From contig JWZX01002266.1 in assembly GCA_001275005.1 (NCBI GenBank), positions 1-28,627 on the forward strand: 28,627 nucleotides of DNA, written 5' to 3'. Both the position numbers and the translations under genes were made by a program. Below are positions 4,971-28,627 of the stretch, one piece after another. This DNA is from Chrysochromulina tobinii. Lineage: Eukaryota > Haptophyta > Prymnesiales > Chrysochromulinaceae. The first letter of the stretch is position 1. Every line of letters starts with the position of its first letter. The notes beneath the pieces are model-generated. The model was given only the letters and a program-made list of their open reading frames with translations. It did no database searches and was not told the DNA's origin.

Positions 4971-4972
4971 AT
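4703..4972 (-). other. Protein-like minus-strand fragment upstream of the transporter gene
   Basis: The minus frame from an ATG at 4972 to a stop at 4703 (89 codons) includes GYGVNWEMLDWALDAMPDVD followed by a Cys/His-containing tail (HAACTMCRGH). The middle part looks like genuine amphipathic protein rather than GC shadow, but no family is recognised and there is no partner exon. The ATG overlaps the start codon of the transporter on the other strand, so if this is a gene the two would be divergent with no spacer, which argues for an exon fragment or chance. Confidence 0.2.
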
Positions 4973-5864
4973 GGCTAATCTTTACACTACGCTTACCACG
5001 CCTTACCGTGACCTGAACGCTGCGCGCTCGGCATACGCCGATGGTCAAGATACTGCCGCTTCGAAAGCGGCGCACAGCATGTCGCTTGCTGTCGCTGGCG
5101 AGGAGCACGAGGAATCAGGAGGCAGGCTGAAGGCGATCATATTCGGCGGCCTCGACGGCATCCTGACTTCCTTTGCGATTATCGCCGGTGCGCACGGAGC
5201 CAATTTAGGGCCGGTCCCCATGCTTGCGCTCGGCATCTCCAATGTGCTGGCTGATGCCCTGAGCATGGGGGCGGGTGAGTTCCTCTCGTCACGCTCGTAC
5301 AACTCCTATGTGCTCAAGGAGCGCGAGCGTGAGATGTGGGAGCTGAAAAACCACCCCGAGGGCGAGATCGCGGAGATGGTTCAGCTATTTGTTGCACGGG
5401 GCATGTCGCGTGTAGACGCAGAGGTTGTCATCGAACGCATGGCCAAGTACGAAGAGTTCTTTGTCGATATCATGATGAAGGAGGAGCTGTCGCTGCCCGT
5501 GCCCTCAGAGGAGGACACCCTCGAGTCGCTAAAGGACGGAATCGCCATGTTCCTCGCATTCGCGCTCTTCGGCATGCTGCCTCTCGCGTGCTACATCCTC
5601 GCCGGCATGCTGGCTCCATCATTGGACGTCACGAGCCTCTTCAGCGTCGCATGCGTTGCGACGGCTATCTCGCTCTTCGCCCTCGGCGCCTTCAAGGCAC
5701 GCTTCCATGACAAGCGCTACCTGTATGCAGGCGTCGAGACCGTGCTGCTCGGTGGCGCGTGCGCGGCCGTTTCCTATTTCGTGGGCCGCGCCGTCTCCCA
5801 GTTCGCAGGGTTCGAGCAGCTCGAGTTCGTCATTCAGTATGAACAGCAGCCAACTGTGCTATAA
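4971..5864 (+). CDS. Vacuolar iron/manganese transporter (VIT1/Ccc1 family)
   Basis: A single-exon 297-residue protein. VIT/Ccc1 proteins move Fe2+ or Mn2+ from the cytosol into vacuoles or similar compartments by proton antiport. The family landmarks are present: GGLDGILTSFAIIAG in membrane segment 1 (residues 59-73, with the conserved Asp62), the LGISNVLADALSMGAGEF segment (87-104), and then a long charged, Glu-rich cytosolic helical loop (about 112-178, with KEREREMWELKNHPEGEI) that acts as the metal-binding domain in the family. Three further membrane segments lie at about 190-212, 219-243 and 250-272. The five-segment layout and total length match the family. The first 50 residues are a hydrophilic cytosolic tail. 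The ATG used is the first in frame. Metal specificity cannot be told from sequence. Family assignment is firm. Confidence 0.93.
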   Translation: MANLYTTLTTPYRDLNAARSAYADGQDTAASKAAHSMSLAVAGEEHEESGGRLKAIIFGGLDGILTSFAIIAGAHGANLGPVPMLALGISNVLADALSMGAGEFLSSRSYNSYVLKEREREMWELKNHPEGEIAEMVQLFVARGMSRVDAEVVIERMAKYEEFFVDIMMKEELSLPVPSEEDTLESLKDGIAMFLAFALFGMLPLACYILAGMLAPSLDVTSLFSVACVATAISLFALGAFKARFHDKRYLYAGVETVLLGGACAAVSYFVGRAVSQFAGFEQLEFVIQYEQQPTVL

Positions 5865-8746: not shown

Positions 8747-8834
8747 CACTCGCTCGTCTGTGACCGCACGGCAGCATTTGCCATTTCTCGCACAATCCGC
8801 GTCGTCGCGCGGTCGGAGCTCCCACGTCGTTGAG

Positions 8835-9548
8835 ATGCCTCTTGCGATCGTGCTCCTCGCCTCAGCGTACGGCGGGTCGCTGACTCTCAAGTACTTTGAT
8901 GCGCGAGGCGCTGCGGAGACCACACGTGTCCTCCTGGCCATCGGCGGCTTGCAGTATGAAGACAAGCGCTACAAGATCGGGCCTGGCTTCGACGCCCCCG
9001 AGTTCAAAGCCGAAAAGGAGTCGGGCGCGCTGTTGCTGAATCTCGACCGTGCGCCAATCCTAATGACGGACGAAGGCTCCATCGGCCAGTCGAAAAGCAT
9101 GGAGCGCTACGTGGCCCGCGAGGCTGGGCTCATGGGTCGCTCGTCGTTCGAGGCGGCCACGATCGACATGGTCGCTGAGCATGTTCGTGACGTCAGAGAC
9201 GCGCAGCAGCGAAAGGGTTTCTCCAAGATGGCTCGCGGCAAGACGGACGATGAGAAGGCCACGCTCTCCGCTGAGTGGTACGGCGCCGACCTCCCTGGCT
9301 GGTTGAGCCGATTGGAGGCGTGTGTCGTGCAGCTCTCTGGGCCGGGCGCGATGCACGCCGTCGGTGGCCGCATCTCGTACGCCGACGTCTGCATTTGGTC
9401 GTTGCTGCGTGAGGGATCCGCCGAGGATGTGGCGCTCGTCACCAAGGCTGCAGCTGGGTGCAAGACGCTGCAGTGCATTGCAGATGGAGTTGCTGAGCTG
9501 CCTGCGGTGAGCAAATGGGTGAAGAGCCGTCCCGTGACGTCATTCTAA
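8835..9548 (+). CDS. Glutathione S-transferase, sigma/alpha-like
   Basis: A 237-residue protein starting at the ATG at 8835; the frame is open upstream but lacks another ATG before it. GSTs conjugate glutathione to electrophiles or act as peroxidases or isomerases. The N-terminal thioredoxin-like half carries LTLKYFDARGAAETTRVLLA (16-35), with Tyr20 in the place of the catalytic Tyr of Tyr-type GSTs, the APIL turn that holds the cis-proline (73-76), and the glutathione-binding QSKSMERYVARE (85-96). The helical C-terminal half includes ISYADVCIWSLL (180-191), the conserved N-capping/Asp motif of GST helix 6. Residues 1-13 are hydrophobic, so a signal peptide is possible, or a slightly extended first strand. 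Length fits a one-domain GST. Class assignment is approximate. Confidence 0.87.
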   Translation: MPLAIVLLASAYGGSLTLKYFDARGAAETTRVLLAIGGLQYEDKRYKIGPGFDAPEFKAEKESGALLLNLDRAPILMTDEGSIGQSKSMERYVAREAGLMGRSSFEAATIDMVAEHVRDVRDAQQRKGFSKMARGKTDDEKATLSAEWYGADLPGWLSRLEACVVQLSGPGAMHAVGGRISYADVCIWSLLREGSAEDVALVTKAAAGCKTLQCIADGVAELPAVSKWVKSRPVTSF

Positions 9549-10283: not shown

Positions 10284-12290
10284 ATGGCGGGGGTGCATGT
10301 GTCGGGCATCCGGTTGATCTTCCTAGACGTGGACGGGGTGCTCTGCTGCAATAAGCATGGACACCTGGAAGCAGACAAGCTGAAGAGGCTCGCAGGCATC
10401 GTGCAGCGCACCAACAGCAAAGTGGTGCTCTCGACAGACTGGCGGCGCCATCCAGAGTTGAAGCTTCGGCTCATGCAGGTGCTAGCCACCCATGACTGCC
10501 AGGTCATCGGCGCCACGCTCAAGGGACCTGCACTGGAGCCAGTGAGGCCACGCGAGATCACTGCGTGGCTGGATGGCTACGAAACTGAGCGCCACTTGCA
10601 CGCGTCGCCTGCTGTATCATCATGGGTGGCAGTTGACGACAGGCCTCTGCTCCGCGAGGACGGCGGTGAGGCATTAACCGGCCACTTTGTGCAGACCATC
10701 TTTCAGTTCGGCCTCGACGATATCGCCGCCGAGCGCATGACCGCCATTCTTCTCGAGGACGAGAAGTCGACGGCAAAGAACACCCCCCCTTCCACTCTTG
10801 CGGCATGCACGAACACCAACGTCACACCCATGGCTGCCCTGTGGCTAAGCGGTGGCGCTGCTGCGCCCGCGCCGTCATCACACGCGCCGCTAGGTGTCCA
10901 GGTCCAGTGGATCCACGTGTCGCCGCCTGCCGCGCACGTCACAGCGACAGGTACAGTCGAAAGCGCTCTGGCTGACGAGGAGCGTCGTGAACGGATAGGG
11001 CGCCATCTTCGGACTCCGACCTCACCGTCCAAGCCGGTGGAACCAGCGCAGCATGTGCCTCCGTCCCCCGTGTCGACGGTGACGCCGACGTTGTCGTGCG
11101 TCAGCCCCAGCCCCTACGGCCCCAGCCCCACCGCGCCCAGGAGCACGCCCTCTTCTCCGCCGCCCCCATCGTTTCAGGGCGGGCGATGGGTGCAAGGGAA
11201 GAGCTCCACGGACTATGGATCCGCCTCCGGGGCGGCTGCACCGAAGAGCCTCACGTGTAATGACATAGGCCAACTGAGCGGCTACAGCCCAGCCTCTGGA
11301 TCAGCCGCACCGTCAGTTACGTCGCCAGGATGTGGTCAAAGCTGCTGCCACGCCGCGCCCATGTATCAGCATGTTCCCCCCAAACAAGCCGAGAGAAGCA
11401 GACAGACGCGCAGCGCCCTCTCACGCAGCTCACCGCCCTCGATTACCGCACTGCGACAAGTCGCGACAATGCAGTCGACAATGCCCCCTTTTGCCTCGAT
11501 GATGCCACATGGTTTGGCCTTCAGTCATCAGGGCTTCGCAACCTCGCAGCAGGCACACCCGCATGGCGCACCCACGTTGCCCACGACAGCGCTCGCGGGC
11601 GCACCGACGGAGCTGCCGACGGCCGCACCCGATGGCGCTCAACGCGGCGCTCGGCCGCCTGATCTCTCGGTGCAGGTCGCCAAGTTTGTGCTCTCGTCGG
11701 ACGATGTCACCAGTGCCGGCACGGCTCGTGTACCGGCATGGCGAGCAAAGACGGCGCCCAGGACGGCGCCCATGAGCTCGCCAGGCAAGGGGGCTTCCCA
11801 GAGCCTGCTGAGTCACATGGCGCGTGCCCGCGAGGCGGCAAGGTTTCAAGCGGCGAGGGCTGTCGAGGAAGGTGACGGGATCAGGCCGCCTCGAGGCGCA
11901 CACGGAGGCGCACTGGACGGCGGAGGCCGGTCGCCTTCGGTCCGCCCTTCCATCCAAGTGCCAGCTTGGTCGGCCACTTCGATCCAAGTTCCGCCCACGG
12001 CTGGCGTCCTGAATCAGGTTCTCGCTAGCATGTCTCCGAGCTTCTCCGACGAGTTGTTCCCGACGCGTGCCCCTGCACGCCATCCCGGGCACAAACCTGG
12101 GCACGCTACACGAGTGCCGCCGGCATGTTCGCCCAATCAAGCGGCCGTGGCTGACCAGATGGTATGGTCGACTGCGCCTCCAGGCGGCCTCAGGCGGCTC
12201 GAAAACGGGCCCCGGCCCTATTCAAGCGAGAGTGCGAGACTTGTGGCTCTTGCCAACGCGCAGCAACACACGCGCCGTCATGTGTACTGA
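10284..12290 (+). CDS. HAD-superfamily phosphatase-like protein (RNA-repair-associated HAD type) with long disordered tail
   Basis: The ATG at 10284 gives 668 residues. The first ~155 form a HAD fold without a large cap: motif I IFLDVDGVL (12-20, nucleophile Asp15 and acid/base Asp17), motif II VVLSTDWRRH (47-56, Ser/Thr 50-51), a REITAWL segment (90-96), motif IV AVDDR (116-120) and the closing FGLDDIAAERM. This set matches the small HAD domain found in 'Swiss Army Knife' RNA-repair proteins and in stand-alone eukaryotic and viral proteins; such domains are thought to remove phosphates from RNA ends or small molecules. The remaining ~510 residues are Pro/Ser/Ala/Thr-rich and predicted disordered, with a short repeat around SIQVPAWSATSIQVPP. 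No RNA ligase or kinase domain is fused. The substrate is unknown. Confidence 0.78.
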   Translation: MAGVHVSGIRLIFLDVDGVLCCNKHGHLEADKLKRLAGIVQRTNSKVVLSTDWRRHPELKLRLMQVLATHDCQVIGATLKGPALEPVRPREITAWLDGYETERHLHASPAVSSWVAVDDRPLLREDGGEALTGHFVQTIFQFGLDDIAAERMTAILLEDEKSTAKNTPPSTLAACTNTNVTPMAALWLSGGAAAPAPSSHAPLGVQVQWIHVSPPAAHVTATGTVESALADEERRERIGRHLRTPTSPSKPVEPAQHVPPSPVSTVTPTLSCVSPSPYGPSPTAPRSTPSSPPPPSFQGGRWVQGKSSTDYGSASGAAAPKSLTCNDIGQLSGYSPASGSAAPSVTSPGCGQSCCHAAPMYQHVPPKQAERSRQTRSALSRSSPPSITALRQVATMQSTMPPFASMMPHGLAFSHQGFATSQQAHPHGAPTLPTTALAGAPTELPTAAPDGAQRGARPPDLSVQVAKFVLSSDDVTSAGTARVPAWRAKTAPRTAPMSSPGKGASQSLLSHMARAREAARFQAARAVEEGDGIRPPRGAHGGALDGGGRSPSVRPSIQVPAWSATSIQVPPTAGVLNQVLASMSPSFSDELFPTRAPARHPGHKPGHATRVPPACSPNQAAVADQMVWSTAPPGGLRRLENGPRPYSSESARLVALANAQQHTRRHVY

Positions 12291-14759: not shown

Positions 14760-15577
14760 CTCGGGCTGTCTACTCACGCCGCTTGCCGGCGCGGCAAGCA
14801 AGCATCGCGCGGGGAGAAGGCGTGCCTGATCTGATCCCCCTGCCATATTTGGCGCGCATTTTACAAGACATATTGAAATAATCCCGTACACCGCACGACC
14901 GGACACCCTCCCCCCTCCCCTTCGCGCTCCGCCCACCGGCTCCGCGCCCGGCATGTCACCCGCTCGTCCCAAACCCAGCTCCTGCTCTGTCAGCAGTGTG
15001 TCTCCCGGCCTCTGCCGCGGCCCACCCCGTCGTTGAAATCACACAGGTGGTGGGGAGCGATGTATGGGTGGAGAACGGATCGTTACCCACCACGTGTGTT
15101 TTGATTGTGTATTGGAATTATGGGCTATGTCGGACTTCCTTTGTGGCAGTCATGTCAAGTCGAGTCAAGTTCGATAGGCTTGTCCGTGGTTGTCGTTGTT
15201 TAAATGCACATGTACGTAGTAACGGTGGCAACTACTTGACTTTGTCGCACATGCAGACAGCTCCTCGGGTGATTGCCCCTTGGAGCAATTGCCTAGGAAG
15301 GACAGTTGAGTGGGTCCCTGTCTCGAATCCGGCGTCATGCTGGGTCGTGCGCGAGGACGGACGGAGTCAGCGTTTCTTCAGGCATCAGGGGCCCGATCAG
15401 GGGGTCGCGGGTTGCTCCATTGGCTCGCCCACCTGGGGTTTCACCGCCCACGTCGGCGGGCGCCCTCCCTCCCGAGTTCATACATGGGTTTTGCCGCTTT
15501 TTCTCATTGGGTTTTCTCCCCCACCTTTCGCGGGCTGTGAATGTTGTGTGAATGACGAATCGGACTTCTTTGCATCT
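14760..15577. other. Intergenic region upstream of the ORP gene
   Basis: No gene supported. The frame of the ORP gene is open back to 14996, but the predicted peptide has no domain and the base composition is AT-richer at 15080-15260, so I treat it as promoter/5' UTR. An AT-rich patch with a TACAAGACATATTGAAATAATCC stretch (about 14861-14883) may mark the 3' end of the preceding gene. Confidence 0.5.
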
Positions 15578-17659
15578 ATGGATTCTCCTCCGTCCGCGCG
15601 AAGAAAGACGTACGCCCCCGCGGCTCGAGTTGAGCAGACGCCCACAACGGAAGACGCGCTGTCGGCCGGTTCGGCGCGTGTCAGCAAACCTGCCAGCACA
15701 TTCAACTTACCAGGGCCCAACAAGAGCCCGGCGGGCAACGAGCCGTGGCAGATTTTGAAGAAGGAGCTGGGCACTTTACATCTCGGCTCCAGGCTGGAAT
15801 CCCTTGTCGCGCCGGCATCGCTGATGCTGCCCTTCAGCTCCACGGAGCTCTCGCTGCTCGGAGTTGCATGCAGTGCCCCTGGCCTCGCCGCGGCGACGCG
15901 GGAGGCCGATCGCATCCGACGCATGCTTCGTGTCTTAAGCGCCCATCTGGGGGCGATGGCACACACATTGTCGGCGCCGATGATGAAGCCTTACAATCCG
16001 GTGCTTGGGGAGGTCCTCGCCGCTCGTGGCGGAGAGCTTGCGGAGGCGGGCTCGGGCGGAGCGAGCGCATGGCGCGCGGTCATAGAGCAAGTCTCGCTGA
16101 ATCCGCCTCTCACTGCTTTCCACCTTGAGGGATACGCTGGTGCCTCCAGCTTCCGACACTACGGGTCCTCGGGATCCTCCGTCTTCTTCCTTGGGAACAC
16201 AGTCGAGGTGCGGATAGCGCCGCAGCCAGGCGGTACGTTTCTGACGCTCGAGGACGGCACGGAAGAGCAGTATCGTGTCAAGAGCCTCCCGTCCATGTGC
16301 CTGCGCAACATCCTCGGGATCGGACGGCCGTATTGCGAGTGGGTGGGCGATCTCGAGGTCGAGGGCGTTTCGTCAGGCCTCGTCGGCCGAATTACCTTCC
16401 AAGCCGCGCAGATGTTCGATGCGGCGAGCGCGCACCGCGTCGTAGGGGCCGTCTCCTCTGGCGACGCTAAACTCGCCACTGTGCTCTACCACATCGCTGG
16501 CGCTTGGACGAGCCGAGTCGTTGCAACAGCAGCCGATGGGCATGATGAGCTCGAGCTGCTACCGGCGCTTCCGGGCGGCGCGGCGCGGCCCACCGGACTG
16601 GTCCACTTACCGCTGCCGCTGCCGTACGAGCTGCCCACTCACTCCCTCGCCTGGCCGTTACATCCGCATGCGATCTGGTCCGAGCTCACGACGGCGCTCC
16701 GAGCGCGCGACTGGGCGGCAGCGCGCGCGGCCAAGCGCAGAGTGGAGGAGGCGCTGCGAGCGAAAGCCGCGGAGATGGCCGAGGCGGAGACCACTTGCAT
16801 GCCCATGCTCTTCGAAGAGGCGGCTGGCCCTCCCGGCGCGAACGCATGGATTTTGCGCGCCGGAGCTCTCGATCGCGCTTTCAATCCGGTGGGGGTACTG
16901 CCAAATATGGTATCGGATGGCACGCTATTGAGTTGCAACACCCCCGAGGATGCAGCGGAGGATGCAGCGGTGCACTCCACCGCCACACCCTCGAGCTCGG
17001 ATCACAGGCTCATCACGACGGATCACAGGATCGAGACGAATCACATGACGCCAAACCTGACGTCGCGCCGAACCACCACACCGACCGAGGCGGCAGTCGT
17101 GCGCTGGCTGAAATCGCAGGAGCTCCATCTCCCTGCGGAGGTGGAGCGCCGCGCTGAGCGCCCCAGCCCTGAGGCACGCCCTAGCATTCACGTCACACCA
17201 TCCAATAGCGCCCGGAACGGCGCCCGGCCGAGGCTGGACCATTCACAGCTGGACCATTCCCAGCTGGGCCATTCACGGGAGGTCATCGTGGGCCTAGCAA
17301 GGCGCGTTCTGGAGACGCGCTATGTGACCATTGAGCTTCCAGTGGACGGTGGGAAGGCGTTTGATTGGACCGTCGATGACGTGGACATGACGTTCATCGC
17401 GCCCGAGGGAACGTGCAAGGGCGACGAGCACGAGTTCACATTCACACGCATCCCCAAGCCGAGCTTGGTCTCGATGGTCGCTGGCTTTGTCATCGGCATA
17501 GCGCTCGGGTTCGTGAGCATGCACCATCTTCACCTTCTGGACCGATCCGATGCATGCGCCGATGCACTTTTCATGAACCCACGGCAGTGCATAACGCTTT
17601 CGCCGCCCGAGTGTCGGCTGCCCCCGAGTAATGTGATTTGTTGTCAATTTGTTGGTTGA
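15578..17659 (+). CDS. Oxysterol-binding-protein-related (ORP/OSBP) lipid-transfer protein with C-terminal membrane anchor
   Basis: The ATG at 15578 gives 693 residues. ORPs carry sterols or phosphatidylserine between membranes in exchange for PI4P. The ORD core is at about 56-440: WQILKKELGTLHLGSRLES, LPFSSTELSLLG, the family block KPYNPVLGE (137-145), EQVSLNPPLTAFHLEG (170-185), CEWVGDLEV and a C-terminal helix with AKRRVEEALR. The diagnostic EQVSHHPP fingerprint reads EQVSLNPP, so both histidines that contact PI4P phosphates in other ORPs are lost. A low-complexity linker follows, with a DHSQL triplet repeat near 17230-17280. Then comes a small folded segment (YVTIELPVDGGKAFDWTV...) and a transmembrane helix (LVSMVAGFVIGIALGFV, about 630-646) with a ~45-residue tail. 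No PH domain or FFAT motif is evident. Family assignment is firm; ligand is unknown. Confidence 0.87.
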   Translation: MDSPPSARRKTYAPAARVEQTPTTEDALSAGSARVSKPASTFNLPGPNKSPAGNEPWQILKKELGTLHLGSRLESLVAPASLMLPFSSTELSLLGVACSAPGLAAATREADRIRRMLRVLSAHLGAMAHTLSAPMMKPYNPVLGEVLAARGGELAEAGSGGASAWRAVIEQVSLNPPLTAFHLEGYAGASSFRHYGSSGSSVFFLGNTVEVRIAPQPGGTFLTLEDGTEEQYRVKSLPSMCLRNILGIGRPYCEWVGDLEVEGVSSGLVGRITFQAAQMFDAASAHRVVGAVSSGDAKLATVLYHIAGAWTSRVVATAADGHDELELLPALPGGAARPTGLVHLPLPLPYELPTHSLAWPLHPHAIWSELTTALRARDWAAARAAKRRVEEALRAKAAEMAEAETTCMPMLFEEAAGPPGANAWILRAGALDRAFNPVGVLPNMVSDGTLLSCNTPEDAAEDAAVHSTATPSSSDHRLITTDHRIETNHMTPNLTSRRTTTPTEAAVVRWLKSQELHLPAEVERRAERPSPEARPSIHVTPSNSARNGARPRLDHSQLDHSQLGHSREVIVGLARRVLETRYVTIELPVDGGKAFDWTVDDVDMTFIAPEGTCKGDEHEFTFTRIPKPSLVSMVAGFVIGIALGFVSMHHLHLLDRSDACADALFMNPRQCITLSPPECRLPPSNVICCQFVG

Positions 17660-17848: not shown

Positions 17849-20800
17849 ATGGCGTTCCTGAAATCCAAGAATATGATCCATAAGGCGGATTGGGGCCGCG
17901 AACGCCACGACGTCGACCGGCCATTCACCAGTTTGACCTCGAAGTTTGGACCCAATGCTGCTCGCCAATACGCAGAAGCTTACAGCCGGCAGCAGCATCA
18001 GCAGCATCCCGTCACTTCGCCGAGCAGTCAATCATTGCCCGCCTCTGCACGAGGGCATGCCGGATCATCGCTGCCGCTGCAGTCTCGCATCACGCTGACG
18101 ATCCCGCCGTCGACGCCGCTGTATGCACCGGTGCTGCCGCTGTCGCCGCGCACGCTGTCGCCACGCACGGCCTCCTCTCAGGCCGCTCGTGGGCCGCACC
18201 CGCCACCGCCGCTCATCCCGCGGCCGCTGATGAGCGCCACCCAGGTGCGCATCGCGACCGCCGCCCTCATCGATGCGCACCCGCCACGGCCAGTCACGGC
18301 CATCCTGGCCAACGTGCCGTTGGCAGCGCCGACGCCGCTGCTCGAGCACTTGCACCCGAGCACCTTCGTGCCGGTGCCTCCGTCTCCTCGGCCGGGTTCG
18401 CACCGTGTGCGGGCGGCGCGCGAGGTGCCCTGCGCGGAGCTTGAGCAGATCATGCAGGCTCACTACAAGCACGCGATGCCACCGATGATGCCGGGCGCGA
18501 GCTCAGCGTCTGTCGGCGCGCCGCGGCCGGCGAGCCCCGTGGGAGAAGGCATCAGAAATGAGATGGCGCCCAACGGCACCCCACGGGCATTCACAGGAGC
18601 GCGGCCGGCGACGCGAGCCGACCGGCTGTCGCCGCCCGGGCTGTCCGCCGAGGAGCCACTCGCCATTCACAGGAGCCATTCACAGGAGCCACTCGCCGAG
18701 GAGCCACCGGCGCGGCCGGTGCCATACGTGACCGTGTCTCATGAGGAGGTGTGGGGGCACTTCCAGATGGAGATCTGGCGGCGGCTCACGGGGCCCGCCG
18801 AGCCTCCCCCGCGCCCGCCCAAGAAGAAGCCGGTGCGCAAGAAGCTGCCCAGGAAGAAGGCCGAGGTCGAGGAGGTCGCTGTAGAGGATCTGTCTTGGGA
18901 GTTCCGCATCCCGCGCCTGCTGCAGCAGATGGCCGCCAAGAACCACCTCAAGATGATGGACGTGTTCAAAAAGTTCGACTCGGACGGCTCGGGAGCGATA
19001 GATCAGTTCGAGTTCGAGGCGGCGCTCGTCGAGCTCGGGCTCCACGACGTCCCTTGCTTGGAGGCGCGAAAGGTCTTTGAGTCGTACGACGCGGACTCGT
19101 CTGGATCACTAGATATGGATGAGCTTGCCACCATGATCAAGGCGGGCCGCGGCCCTTCGCAGCTGGGCGCGAAGTTGCAGGTGGGTGCGGTCACCGGCTA
19201 CACCAAGGCCGATCACAAGGCCACCTTCACCCGCGCGGGCCACATGCAGATGGAAGGCGCCCTCGCACGCCTCAAGGCCATCGACACGGACGGTGACGGC
19301 TCCGCTAGCATCAAGGAGGTGCTTGCTTTCCTCCTCGCCGAGGGCTACAGCGCCGCAGCGGTAGACGAGCTCATGAAGATCATCGACAAGGACGGCGACG
19401 GTACTCTGACGGAGGACGAGTGGAAGACGGGCGTGAGCAAGCTCGCGGCGACGCTAGGCGCATCGCCCCTCCTCGCACTGACGGAACCTGTCGACGCGCC
19501 CAATTCGGACCTCTTCGTCGATGCTCTGCACCCCACTTGGGTCGGGCCGGATGGCAAGGTGCCCTACCGGAGTTCTCGGTCCGCAATGGCACAGGCCATC
19601 ACGGTGGCTCCAGAGGGATGCACCATCCAAGACCAGACGATGCGCGGCATTCAGCTGCAGCAGCTGCGCTCGCTCATCGTGCATCTCAAGCGCCGATGCA
19701 AGAGTGAGGGCTGGGTCACCACCGACGAGGAGGTCAATGCCGAGCTTGGCCTCGAGACCGGTGCGTCCACGCCGCTTGAGTGGGACAGGTGCTCCATGTA
19801 CGATGTGCTCGCGTATGTCGTCAAACCGGCGACGCGCGCGCGCCGCTGCTCGTTTGTAGAGCTCGTTGCCAAGGACGCGCAGCGGCCGGAATGGTATGTG
19901 GTGCATCGATGGGGCGAGCCGCTTGTGGATACCCTCACGTGCCTCGAGCGCCATGCGAAGGACCGGAATCTCGACCTGAACACGACGACCTACTGGGTGA
20001 GTGCACTCGCCATGTCGCCATGGGACGTTTCAGAGCATCTCGCCGCCGACCCGTTCAGCTCGCCCTTTTTCCACGCCCTCGAGGCCACCAAGGGTTGTGT
20101 CGTCGTCGTCGACCGCGACCGCTCGAAGCAGAGCCTGGACACGAATGTGCCGTACAAGGGTGCGAAGGCGTTCAGCAGGCTGTGGGTGTGCTTCGAGATC
20201 GCAGTCGCTCTCCAGAGAGCCGCCGAGAAAGGGTACATCTTCGACATGTACACGGCGCGCAGCCACAACATCACTGGCAACCTCGTGTACCCGGCATTCG
20301 GCCTGGACGAGCCTCCCCTCTTCATCGTAAATGCAAAGGGCGACGGTTACGAGAAGCGGCAGGCGGTAGGCATTACCGATCCGTCCGCACCGCTCGAGCT
20401 CCCCGTGTCGACACGTGAGTTCAAAAATTACGAAAGCGAAGAGCAGCGCGACTACCGGCAGACCTTCTTCCCTAGCAATGCTCTCATCGCGGGGCTCTCA
20501 TCCAAACTACAGAAGGCGGAGGCCACCATCGCCGCCGACCGCAAGCACATCCTCAACGCGCTCGTGAACCTGTACACGGAGTCGCAGGCCCGGGTTGCGG
20601 GCGCGATCGCGGCGGGCGCGTGGCACTTGAAGCGCACAGCCTCGCTCCAAGACGTGAGGAGTATCAGCATTACTATGGAGGCCCTCAGAGCGGAACCGCC
20701 GGCGGAGCACGAGGGGTATGACGTGTACAATGGGTTGCTGCAGGCGAAGCTCGCTGCCGAGGCGCTGCAGCGAGCGTTCCGTGAGGGAGAGTCGACACTC

Positions 20801-21505
20801 GAGAAGGTGATCAAGGAGGTGCGCACGGCGCCCCTGACGGTCCTACGTGTCTCGATGCGCGACGCCAAGAACACGGCGCAGTTCGAGGAGGCGCTCAAGT
20901 GCCTGCCAGAGACGTTGCGCATCCTCGAGCTTGAGCTACCCGACGTGTTGTACAAGGTGAAGCCGAAGAAGCGCGACGAGGCAGATGCTTCCTCGTGGGA
21001 TAATGTCAAAGTCTTCCCCGACATGACCCACCTCAAGCTCCGCCAGCGCGCGCTCTCGGATGAGGAGACCGAGAAGCTGTCCAAGATGGCGCGCCATCTG
21101 CAGTCGCCCGAGATGGTGATTGGCCGGCTCGTCGGGTACGCGCACGAGTCGGCGCTCTTCCGCGCGGCTCAGCTCGAGACGGTCGACCTCCAGGGCTGGC
21201 CTACTCTCGAGGAGATCCCGTGGAACCTTTTCGAGATGACCTCGCTCCGCACGCTCAACGTCTCCGACTGCAAGAGGCTGTCCAGGATCAAGGTGCAGTT
21301 CCCGCTCATCCCCAGCCAGCTCGAATCGCTGATTCTCGATGGGTGCTCCGCGCTCACCGAGCTCGAGGAGGGCATCAGCCAAAAGCTGAGCAACCTGACC
21401 GGGCTCAGCCTCCGAGGCTGCACCAGCCTCGGCAAGCTGCCAATCTGGGTCAACGACATCGAGCGCAAGGGCGCGGGCGTTGTCCGCCCGGCCCATCTGA
21501 AATGA
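17849..21505 (+). CDS. Four-EF-hand protein with TIR-like domain and leucine-rich repeats
   Basis: A single-exon 1218-residue protein. Residues 1-340 are Pro/Ser/Ala-rich and likely disordered, ending in a basic KKKPVRKKLPRKK patch. Four canonical EF-hand loops follow: 377-388 (DSDGSGAIDQFE), 414-425, 479-490 and 513-524, all with the Asp and Gly positions needed for Ca2+. A domain at about 680-830 has YVVHRWGEPLVDTLTCLE (683-700), TYWVSALAMSP, a GCVVVVDRD strand (749-757) and RLWVCFEIAVAL (777-788). Its motif order resembles TIR domains (an RGE-like start and Trp-x3-Glu in W779/E783), and it is like an unnamed domain common in dinoflagellate and haptophyte proteins. A helical linker (870-990) leads to LRRs (about 995-1200) of the plant-NLR style, e.g. 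LRTLNVSDCKRL and LESLILDGCSAL. There is no NB-ARC ATPase. Ca2+ sensing coupled to a TIR-like output is inferred. Confidence 0.82.
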   Translation: MAFLKSKNMIHKADWGRERHDVDRPFTSLTSKFGPNAARQYAEAYSRQQHQQHPVTSPSSQSLPASARGHAGSSLPLQSRITLTIPPSTPLYAPVLPLSPRTLSPRTASSQAARGPHPPPPLIPRPLMSATQVRIATAALIDAHPPRPVTAILANVPLAAPTPLLEHLHPSTFVPVPPSPRPGSHRVRAAREVPCAELEQIMQAHYKHAMPPMMPGASSASVGAPRPASPVGEGIRNEMAPNGTPRAFTGARPATRADRLSPPGLSAEEPLAIHRSHSQEPLAEEPPARPVPYVTVSHEEVWGHFQMEIWRRLTGPAEPPPRPPKKKPVRKKLPRKKAEVEEVAVEDLSWEFRIPRLLQQMAAKNHLKMMDVFKKFDSDGSGAIDQFEFEAALVELGLHDVPCLEARKVFESYDADSSGSLDMDELATMIKAGRGPSQLGAKLQVGAVTGYTKADHKATFTRAGHMQMEGALARLKAIDTDGDGSASIKEVLAFLLAEGYSAAAVDELMKIIDKDGDGTLTEDEWKTGVSKLAATLGASPLLALTEPVDAPNSDLFVDALHPTWVGPDGKVPYRSSRSAMAQAITVAPEGCTIQDQTMRGIQLQQLRSLIVHLKRRCKSEGWVTTDEEVNAELGLETGASTPLEWDRCSMYDVLAYVVKPATRARRCSFVELVAKDAQRPEWYVVHRWGEPLVDTLTCLERHAKDRNLDLNTTTYWVSALAMSPWDVSEHLAADPFSSPFFHALEATKGCVVVVDRDRSKQSLDTNVPYKGAKAFSRLWVCFEIAVALQRAAEKGYIFDMYTARSHNITGNLVYPAFGLDEPPLFIVNAKGDGYEKRQAVGITDPSAPLELPVSTREFKNYESEEQRDYRQTFFPSNALIAGLSSKLQKAEATIAADRKHILNALVNLYTESQARVAGAIAAGAWHLKRTASLQDVRSISITMEALRAEPPAEHEGYDVYNGLLQAKLAAEALQRAFREGESTLEKVIKEVRTAPLTVLRVSMRDAKNTAQFEEALKCLPETLRILELELPDVLYKVKPKKRDEADASSWDNVKVFPDMTHLKLRQRALSDEETEKLSKMARHLQSPEMVIGRLVGYAHESALFRAAQLETVDLQGWPTLEEIPWNLFEMTSLRTLNVSDCKRLSRIKVQFPLIPSQLESLILDGCSALTELEEGISQKLSNLTGLSLRGCTSLGKLPIWVNDIERKGAGVVRPAHLK

Positions 21506-25951: not shown

Positions 25952-28627
25952 TCACACCGGGCGGTACGAATGGGGCTTCTTCCAAGTCGAAGTCACCCCG
26001 TCACTCCAGTACGGGCGGCCCGTGCGGTCGTAATGCATCACCCACTCGGGCTCAGCGCTCTCTCCACTCTCTCCCATGCTACTCGTATCGCAGACCCCTT
26101 GGGTCTCACTCAGTGGCTGCCGCTCGTACTCATCGCCCGCCGCGCGCCCCGGCCGCAGCTTCTTGGCGATGTCGAGTACTACGCCGCCGCCGGGACCCGT
26201 GGCTCGACGAAACACGAGGCACGCGAGCATAAAGAGCACGCCCGCAGCGGGCAGCACCCATCGTACGAGGGGCACCTCCTCTGAAGCTGCGCGGGAGGGC
26301 TCCAGCGCAGCTTCGAGCACTGCGAGCCACGGCTTAGGCGGCGTTGTGTCGAGCTCGGCGAACAAGGGCGCGGCGGCATGCACTGTGCCCGTCAGCGTGA
26401 GCGTGCCTAGCGCGACCCACGCGCCGTCGTAGTACTCGTCAACGGGCATCTGGCTCAACAGCACGGCGGCGATGTCGAGGCTGGCGGACTGGTCGTCCAG
26501 TGCCTGACGCCCGGGATCGCGCACGTCTCCAAGAGGGGGCACCATGAGTGCAGCGGCGATGGGCGTCAGCATAAAGGCACGTCCCGTCCAGTTGGCATGC
26601 ACGCTCGTGACAGCGCAACTCGATGGCGTCTCCAGCCGCAAGCCCTCGCATGTCTCCGGCGCAGTGCAAGTACCCAAGGACATACGCCTTGGCTCGTCGT
26701 GTGCGTGTAAGGCGCCAGCTGTGACCACCGCTCCAGACGCACTAGCCGCCGCATCGCTGCCCGCCGCCGCGCTGCTCGCTGCCACGCCATCGTAGTGTGC
26801 GAGCTTGGGCACCACATGAGCGCCAACAGCGCGTGAGAAGCGAGCTGCCTCGCCGCTCCCAAACCAGATCGCATCCAGAGCGACGCGCCATAGCGTGCGG
26901 CCGGCCTCCGAGCCAAACTCGGCAGCGGGCGTTCCGCTGCCCGAGCACGATGCGCTGCCCGGGCGCCAGTCGTGCCATTGCTCCCGCGCCTGCGCTGCCG
27001 CGCCCGTCGGCAGCTCACCCTGCGCGGCCACCCACCAATTCGGCACCAGGCCGGTGGGCGCGCATTGTGCCTCGTCCAGCAGGGAGTACGAGGTCTCAAT
27101 GAGCGCCTCCCAATCGGAGGATATCTCGGCCTTTTGGGCGGCGCTCGCCGCGCTGCCCACGACGGCGCCGTGCGAGTCCATGAAGAGTCGGAAGACGCGA
27201 TAGTGCGCGGGCGCGAGGTACGATGGGTTCAGGCAGTCCCATCCCCCCCAGCAGGAACCTAGCTTGACGATCCTCTCGGGCCGGCCGTTGGAGGCGAGGC
27301 GCGTCGGGTGCGGCTGGGTGGAATGGACGAGAAAGGAGTGGCATGACTGATAGGCCCAGCGCGCGAGGTGCAGCCACCACGTGGGCCGTGGTACCTGCGC
27401 CTTCGTCGCGAGCAGCAGCACAATCATGCCGAGGATCGCGTCCTCGTCGCCGTCTGGCGCCGAGCCGGTGCCTACCTCGCCCATCGCCTGGTTGTCAAAC
27501 TTCCACGACGGCAAGCACGGGAAGCCAATAGGCTCAGCGTTGGCCGCCGCCTCCTCGGCAGAGCCTGGCCGGGGGCAAGGGTCGCACTCCCCGGGCTTGG
27601 CGCCGGTAGCACACCATTCGGCGCCGTCGCACTGCCAGCCGGGGCACCAGCTCGGGCACTCGGCCGCCGGGTTGGGCGTGAACCCATCCCTCGCGCCCTC
27701 GCCGCACAAGGGCCCGGTCTGGCACGACGTCCCGCCAAGCCGCCGGCGCTTCGCCGTGCGCTCTCCCATTGTTCGCCAGCCGAGGAACGTGGCGTACGCC
27801 CGCTCGGTGAGCTCGATGCGTCTCTCGTGATCCGCGGGGAGCGCTGCGAGCATCAGGGACGAGAGGAGGAGGCCGTAGCCCTGCCCCTCGCTGATGACGC
27901 CGCCTGCGGCGCCGCCCGACGATAAGACCACCCGTGCCTCTCCCGGTGCGCCTGCGCGCTCGCCGGCCGGCACAATGGCCGTTAGACGGTAGTAGAAGGC
28001 GTCGAGGCGACGAAGGCTCATCGCGAGGCCTGCGGCGCGGCGCCATGAGGCCGACGACGGGTGCAGCAGCTCCTCAGGTGAGACGCGAGGCAGGATGGGG
28101 CGCGGCGATGGGGGTGGCTCCACCGGCAGCGGGGGCGGCGCCGGCGGGCAAGGGTCGCAATCCCGGGGCTTGGGCGCCGGTAGCACACCATTCGGCGCCG
28201 TCGCACTGCCAGCCTGGGCACCAGCTCGGGCACTCGGCAGGCGGTGGCGGCGGCAGCGGCGGTTCGAGGGAGGGGGAGGAGGGCGGAGAAGTGGGGCGGA
28301 GATGGTGCACCGGAGCGGGTGCCTGATCGGGCTCCCAAGTCCCGGGGCATTCCCAATGCTCGTTGCTTGTGCACGGCTCTGCAGGAACCACCCGGCAGAG
28401 CGCAAACCGCTTGCCGACCGACTTGAAGCAGCCGTGCCGCTCGTCTGCACAGCAGCGCGTCTCCCAGCACCGCTGCCCCGCGGCCGAACACTCGCCATGG
28501 GGCGTCACTGACGAGGGTGGCGATGAGGCAGGTGGCGCAGGTGAGGCGGCGGGCGCGGCGGCGGGAGGCTCGGCGGACGCGGCGGCGAGCGGGGCGGGCT
28601 GAGTGGGTGAGGGAGTCGGGGGGTGGG
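25952..28627 (-). CDS. Membrane-anchored GH8 family glycoside hydrolase with cytosolic WW domain (5' partial, one frameshift)
   Basis: Residue numbers follow the 848-codon frame at 28498-25952. GH8 enzymes cleave beta-1,4-linked glucans, xylans or chitosan. Key blocks: ISEGQGYGLLLSSLML (202-217, catalytic Glu204), APDGDEDAILGMIVLLLA (347-364, the DGD active-site block), PSYLAPAHYRVF (425-436) and FGSEAGRTLWRVALDAIW (528-545). A Cys/Trp module (CPSWCPGWQCDGAEWC, 281-296) is inserted between the two active-site blocks. A membrane helix (WVLPAAGVLFMLACLVF, about 745-761) precedes a cytosolic tail with a WW-like domain (W819, YW 830-831, W839, P842). A near-copy of the module precedes the catalytic domain in another frame, joined by a one-base shift at 28172-28174. 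That frame runs upstream through a Cys-rich segment (CSAAGQRCWETRCC...) to the window edge. So the N-terminus is incomplete here. Confidence 0.82.
27575..27664 (-). repeat. Duplicated Trp/Cys module, inner copy
   Basis: About 90 bp nearly identical to 28148-28240 (a few substitutions plus one base fewer). It encodes CPSWCPGWQCDGAEWC and the KPGECDPCP tail inside the GH8 catalytic domain, in the main frame. The other copy precedes the catalytic domain. Confidence 0.9.
28148..28240 (-). repeat. Duplicated Trp/Cys module, outer copy, with one extra base
   Basis: Matches 27575-27664 but has GGG at 28172-28174 where the inner copy has GG. As a result the module start is in one frame and its DCDPCP end is in the next. 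The upstream frame stops at 28074 if not corrected. Confidence 0.88.

Follow-up and report, generated by a model that had tools for sequence, protein, structure and literature searches.

A predicted TIR-like domain between EF-hands and leucine-rich repeats in a protein of the haptophyte Chrysochromulina tobinii

Plant TIR-NB-ARC-LRR receptors (RPP1, ROQ1), the TIR NADases SARM1 and AbTir, and fungal HET proteins (PF06985; HET-E, TOL) are among the closest described counterparts of a protein encoded by a 28,627-nucleotide stretch of Chrysochromulina tobinii DNA (contig JWZX01002266.1, assembly GCA_001275005.1; hereafter the window). This protein, the product of an uninterrupted open reading frame of 1218 amino acids (17849..21505, forward strand, as are all its features below), consists of a low-complexity N-terminus, EF-hands, a TIR-like middle domain, a helical neck and leucine-rich repeats (LRRs), and is called here the EF/TIR-like/LRR protein. 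It shares with the plant receptors and the TIR NADases a predicted TIR-like fold and a Trp followed four residues later by a Glu, and the best PDB sequence matches of its LRRs are plant NLRs. Unlike them, it has no NB-ARC and no match to the TIR models, carries EF-hands in front and contains extra conserved helical subdomains. The fungal HET domain is likewise a remote TIR relative with a conserved Glu, joined to repeats in NLR-type proteins (PMC4986451). However, those fungal proteins combine NACHT or NB-ARC with WD40, ANK or TPR, no LRR being found among them and no EF-hand being mentioned in the available text (PMC4986451), whereas the EF/TIR-like/LRR protein gives no Pfam HET match. The DUF4062 TIR-like NADases (TEP1, Swarozyc) are also a diverged TIR-like family recognized through fold and Glu, but they form another family with other partners, and activity was measured there while the EF/TIR-like/LRR protein is known from sequence (preprint PMC13174449). 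Finally, the putative TLR LOC101845043 of Aplysia, a predicted TIR protein of TLR (LRR) type, also contains an EF-hand, but it is an animal protein with a ROC-COR GTPase, known from genome annotation only (PMC9334734). Among the matches listed in a search of the open-access literature by titles and abstract openings, no paper dealt with an EF-hand/TIR-like/LRR protein in protists; because most subscription journals lie outside that literature, this is no proof of novelty. What is newer is the combination with EF-hands and LRRs rather than the type of domain, because Haptophyceae were already reported in 2014 to have TIR-related HET homologues (PMC4986451).

The middle domain is assigned with high confidence to the TIR superfamily, of which it is a divergent member. 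The stretch aligning with TIR domains extends over residues 679-971 (19883..20761; model residues 94-386) with a low-confidence insertion at about 811-834. After VIA realignment of the Foldseek candidates from the PDB, TIR domains ranked first for both predicted models, with 29 and 37 leading TIR rows, and the SEFIR and deoxyribosyltransferase rows scored below them. The models predict the parallel five-stranded TIR sheet, strand direction being taken from the TIR alignments. In front of this core lies a conserved helical subdomain (residues 588-675, 19610..19873; Y651, P660, T662 and C667-S-x-V-E671), with predicted helices at model residues 18-31, 65-77 and 84-88. Between the core and the repeats, conservation and the model delimit a helical neck (residues 864-985, 20438..20803; F874-P875, D897, I901), the last helix of which joins in the TIR alignment in the model.

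The conserved residues of the family were counted among the members with a residue at the position concerned (65-82 for the listed columns). Strand A ends with H686-R-W688-G689-E (19904..19918), where H686 is kept in 77/80 members and W688 in 80/80, the family consensus being SHWWGE. Strand B and the residues after it carry Y715-W716...P724 (19991..20020; consensus YWVCAYANNQ), with W716 in 81/82 members and a Pro at position 724, where 77 of 82 members have Gln. Strand C is GCVVVV-D755 (20093..20113; model strand 164-169; D755 in 79/81). It is the third strand of the core in the model, and the helix that follows it, helix C, holds R777-L-W779-V-C-F-E783 (20177..20197), the counterpart of the ligand-binding Trp and Glu of TIR domains: R777 and W779 occur in 81/81 members and E783 in 80/81. 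Position 780 is Cys in 73/81 members and Val in the window protein (RLWVCFE); because of this prevalence and of the near-invariant R777, W779 and E783, the family motif is written RxWCxxE. Besides position 780, the window protein departs from the commonest residue at 687, 718, 723 and 724. An earlier note on this DNA, made from the letters alone, had quoted YVVHRWGEPLVDTLTCLE, VVVV and RLWVCFEIAVAL from the middle domain and compared the spacing of W779 and E783 to that of TIR domains. The strings and the numbering agree with the translation, and the spacing holds nearly throughout the family, with the Glu aligned on that of TIR_2. In a TIR survey, E75 lies between strands C and D, and W71 and E75 bind the ligand in SARM1 with the same +4 spacing (PMC7075850).

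Kinship with TIR was also sought by profile-profile comparison, the family being set against 20 of the 24 TIR_2 domains over cut-off in the same genome rather than against the PF01582 and PF13676 models themselves. The score was 33.4 (P 5e-4, probability 30.6%), compared with shuffle maxima of 21.8 (n=100) and 25.3 (n=300), 13.3 for the reversed profile and 9.9, 13.7 and 18.0 for three non-TIR controls; with 13 non-redundant TIRs it was 36.0. In this alignment E783 coincides with the Glu of TIR_2, and SHWWGE with strand A. Several results weigh against a TIR assignment. Without the TIR locus L020 the profile score falls to 25.1, and the TIR subgroups taken singly give 27.9, 17.2 and 9.8. Foldseek itself returned no significant match in the PDB for either model, its top rows not being TIR. 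A PDB sequence-profile search found no TIR. Neither 17 members nor the 82-member consensus matched PF01582 or PF13676 in Pfam at E<=10, a range in which the HMMER filters discard most matches above about 0.1. Because of the scores of shuffles, controls and subgroups, the profile comparison lends support to the kinship but does not decide it. The earlier note had proposed a TIR relative and, as checks, a fold search and an HMM-HMM comparison. The relationship stands through the predicted fold, the TIR_2 profile and the retained E783, but not as plain membership of PF01582 or PF13676; the fold search puts TIR first after realignment only. Foldseek against a viral structure library gave no significant match for model 1, and residues 586-985 matched 0 families in Pfam, PADLOC and NCBIfam.

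Upstream of this domain, the EF-hand region (residues 362-535, 18932..19453) forms two pairs over the Pfam cut-off (PF13405, EF-hand_6, 6.5e-20; PF13499, 1.4e-16). A scan for 12-residue loops retrieved DSDGSGAIDQFE (residues 377-388, 18977..19012), DADSSGSLDMDE (414-425, 19088..19123), DTDGDGSASIKE (479-490, 19283..19318, with Ala at position 8) and DKDGDGTLTEDE (513-524, 19385..19420), all with acidic or polar residues at 1, 3 and 5 and an acidic residue at 12, while shuffling of family proteins predicts about 0.005 such loops per protein. Residues 1-355 (17849..18913) are rich in Pro, Ala, Ser and Lys and have no Pfam match. At the other end, the LRRs (residues 1102-1200, 21152..21448) reach no Pfam LRR cut-off (best match 6e-4), yet plant NLRs lead the PDB sequence matches (7crb, E 1e-7; At5g66900, E 9e-7; residues 1102-1204). 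Neither NB-ARC nor NACHT matched the product in Pfam at E<=1, so that the central NTPase defining NLR (STAND) proteins was not found. Thus, the four loops, the plant-NLR-style LRRs and the missing NB-ARC described in the earlier note were all recovered. Elsewhere in the genome, 5/6 NB-ARC matches pass the Pfam cut-off, a model that also gives matches in prokaryote controls. Among loci L020-L046, 24/27 PF13676 matches pass the cut-off, and TIR and NB-ARC proteins coexist with the EF/TIR-like/LRR family. On contig C110 (7913-8368), a 239-residue frame contains a copy, 73% identical, of residues 60-237 of the EF/TIR-like/LRR protein and nothing matching the rest of it after the copied part; it is apparently a partial duplicate.

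A protein search with residues 540-900 retrieved 11 proteins, from 98 to about 30% identical (98, 97, 93, 69 and 61% for the top relatives), the 98% one, P0002, being also 1218 residues long. An alignment search gave seven proteins, one of them known already, and when the Polarella member P0008 served as query, 73 were retrieved, including P0008 itself and P0011. The domain profile matches 98/98 of the sequences given (89 proteins, the window's own and its near-copies included, and nine loci), of which 82 remain at <80% identity. The named organisms are dinoflagellates (Polarella, Symbiodinium, Effrenium, Durusdinium, Zooxanthella and Alexandrium), most rows being without an organism name. This is in line with the earlier remark that an unnamed domain of this kind is frequent in dinoflagellates. 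The family has at least 11 loci in the window's genome, and EF-hands pass the Pfam cut-off in 7/10 of the family genes scanned there. Four paralogue pairs have dN/dS of 0.34-0.47, which suggests constraint; three of the pairs lie among three near-copies and the fourth has a dS of 1.6. Over all 98 sequences, 24 have an upstream EF loop, 16 at least two, and 52 at least 80 residues before the domain (16, 10 and 41 among the 82 non-redundant ones). The partners of the TIR-like domain are EF-hands, LRR, TPR, ankyrin and Kelch, and in P0048, P0076 and P0064 it occurs with PF03366 (YEATS) or PF00240 (ubiquitin). Alignments A2 and A3 omit the near-copies P0002-P0004, the short sequences P0016 and P0017 and the distant P0018; L014, a near-copy of L013, is left out of A2, A3 and A5, and the split gene L011 is in none of the alignments and not among the 98. 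A5 comprises 28 sequences: the window protein, 22 proteins from 50 picked as diverse, and five loci. Two further loci may be mentioned. On contig C1792, a single open frame of about 2000 residues (L009) encodes Kelch repeats, EF-hands and the TIR-like domain, with LRR-like repeats seen by eye at its end. On contig C1891, L012 has a Med26-like region in front and, as read from the alignment, Ala replacing the catalytic-type Glu.

Viruses end algal blooms, and little is known of how marine protists detect infection and commit themselves to death. Present in dinoflagellates and a haptophyte and without a name in Pfam, PADLOC or NCBIfam, this family is a candidate for infection-sensing or death machinery through its TIR-like predicted fold, its RxWCxxE motif and its LRR, TPR, ankyrin and EF-hand partners. 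Because a Ca2+ sensor, a TIR-like effector and repeats follow each other without a switch ATPase, joint control by Ca2+ and the repeats is suggested, which raises the question of a TIR-type enzyme under direct Ca2+ control with no NLR ATPase. The protein would probably be a cytosolic receptor-effector without NTPase. Its middle domain, on the TIR/HET side, would process NAD(P)+ or a related nucleotide, E783 being the putative catalytic residue in a putative pocket lined by W779, H686 and W688; that it is an enzyme is slightly favored. The LRRs and the neck may sense or bind a partner, and the EF-hands may make activation depend on a Ca2+ rise, control by Ca2+ being a matter of even chances. 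Ca2+ and repeat-bound signals together could then release or assemble the effector without a switch ATPase. Self-association would activate it as in other TIR enzymes, TIR activation requiring oligomerization (preprint PMC13174449). The outcome would be NAD+ loss or a signaling nucleotide leading to defense or cell death, a role for which the balance is equal on both sides. For the proposal as a whole, an NTPase-free receptor-effector with a TIR-type enzyme under Ca2+ and LRR control, we see about as much reason to accept as to doubt. Its most specific version is tentative and less likely than not: algae and dinoflagellates would have a TIR-type receptor that processes nucleotides and is gated by Ca2+, with EF-hands in place of the NLR switch ATPase. 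In it, a Ca2+ rise combined with an LRR signal would lead to assembly of the TIR-like domain, and the assembled domain would degrade NAD+ or produce a signaling nucleotide, with possible Ca2+ feedback, and trigger defense or cell death.

Alternatively, and possibly, though we think it rather unlikely, the TIR-type fold has no enzyme activity and acts as an adaptor recruiting further TIR or TIR-like proteins, its assembly being governed by Ca2+ and the LRRs. Indeed, some TIR groups keep the Glu without reported NADase activity (PMC7075850), the 24 PF13676 domains of the genome provide possible partners, and the window protein is off-consensus at the five positions given above while one member has Ala for Glu. 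However, the R, W and E and the strand-A His and Trp are near-invariant over 82 divergent members, a pattern that fits a ligand or active site more readily than a pure interface.

A third and unlikely explanation is an algal HET domain proper, i.e., a cell-death domain like that of the fungal HET proteins, for which no biochemical mechanism is established; it overlaps with the TIR-type receptor favored here, because HET is regarded as related to TIR. The motifs S[HY]xWG (SHWWGE), WxxAxxxNQ (WVCAYANNQ) and RxWxxxE (RxWCxxE) may resemble those of HET domains. The TPR-repeat protein P0018 of Alexandrium gave a below-threshold PF06985 match (E 1.1), and together with the TPR relatives of this genome it matched the family with 99.2% probability (E 7e-20; profile-profile, without shuffle control). 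By contrast, PF06985 matched neither 17 family members, nor the 82-member consensus, nor, among the matches listed at E<=5, eight TPR relatives of this genome. It gave no match in the window's own genome, and matched 0/30 genomes behind 30 of the 80 groEL loci, alphaproteobacterial by their titles, and 0/398 genomes of that phylum; because no control genome gave one either, absence of HET from those genomes is not shown. HET homologues occur outside fungi, Haptophyceae included, with an Emiliania sequence in a figure (PMC4986451, 2014), and HET is described as a remote TIR relative keeping the conserved Glu (PMC4986451, PMC9153377). A 2025 review enters the biochemical evidence on HET/TIR proteins as "not determined", and in a later sentence credits modules of this type from other kingdoms with NAD+ hydrolase activity (PMC12881547). 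Against TIR_2, the TPR proteins grouped with P0018 reached a score of only 18.8, which does not exceed the null computed for the main family. Loci L047-L058 of the same genome encode TPR-repeat proteins, distant kin of the middle domain, one of them also with ankyrins; in the eight scanned, no Pfam name for the N-terminal domain was among the matches listed. A superficial match to another doubly wound alpha/beta enzyme, e.g., a nucleoside 2'-deoxyribosyltransferase relative, is improbable in view of the TIR lead in both models and of E783 on the TIR_2 Glu.

Ordinary neighbors in the window, as named by Pfam, are a VIT family protein (4971-5864), a glutathione S-transferase (8760-9548), an oxysterol-binding protein (14996-17659) and a glycosyl hydrolase of family 8 (25952-28498, reverse strand). 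Besides, a 668-residue open reading frame at 10284-12290 carries at its N-terminus a 'Swiss Army Knife RNA repair' HAD domain (PF18143, 2.5e-21), and its long tail is rich in Pro, Ser and Ala. Finally, a red-plastid alga is suggested by a groEL gene on contig C1598, which has 38% GC against 62% at the window locus and reads as plastid-encoded.
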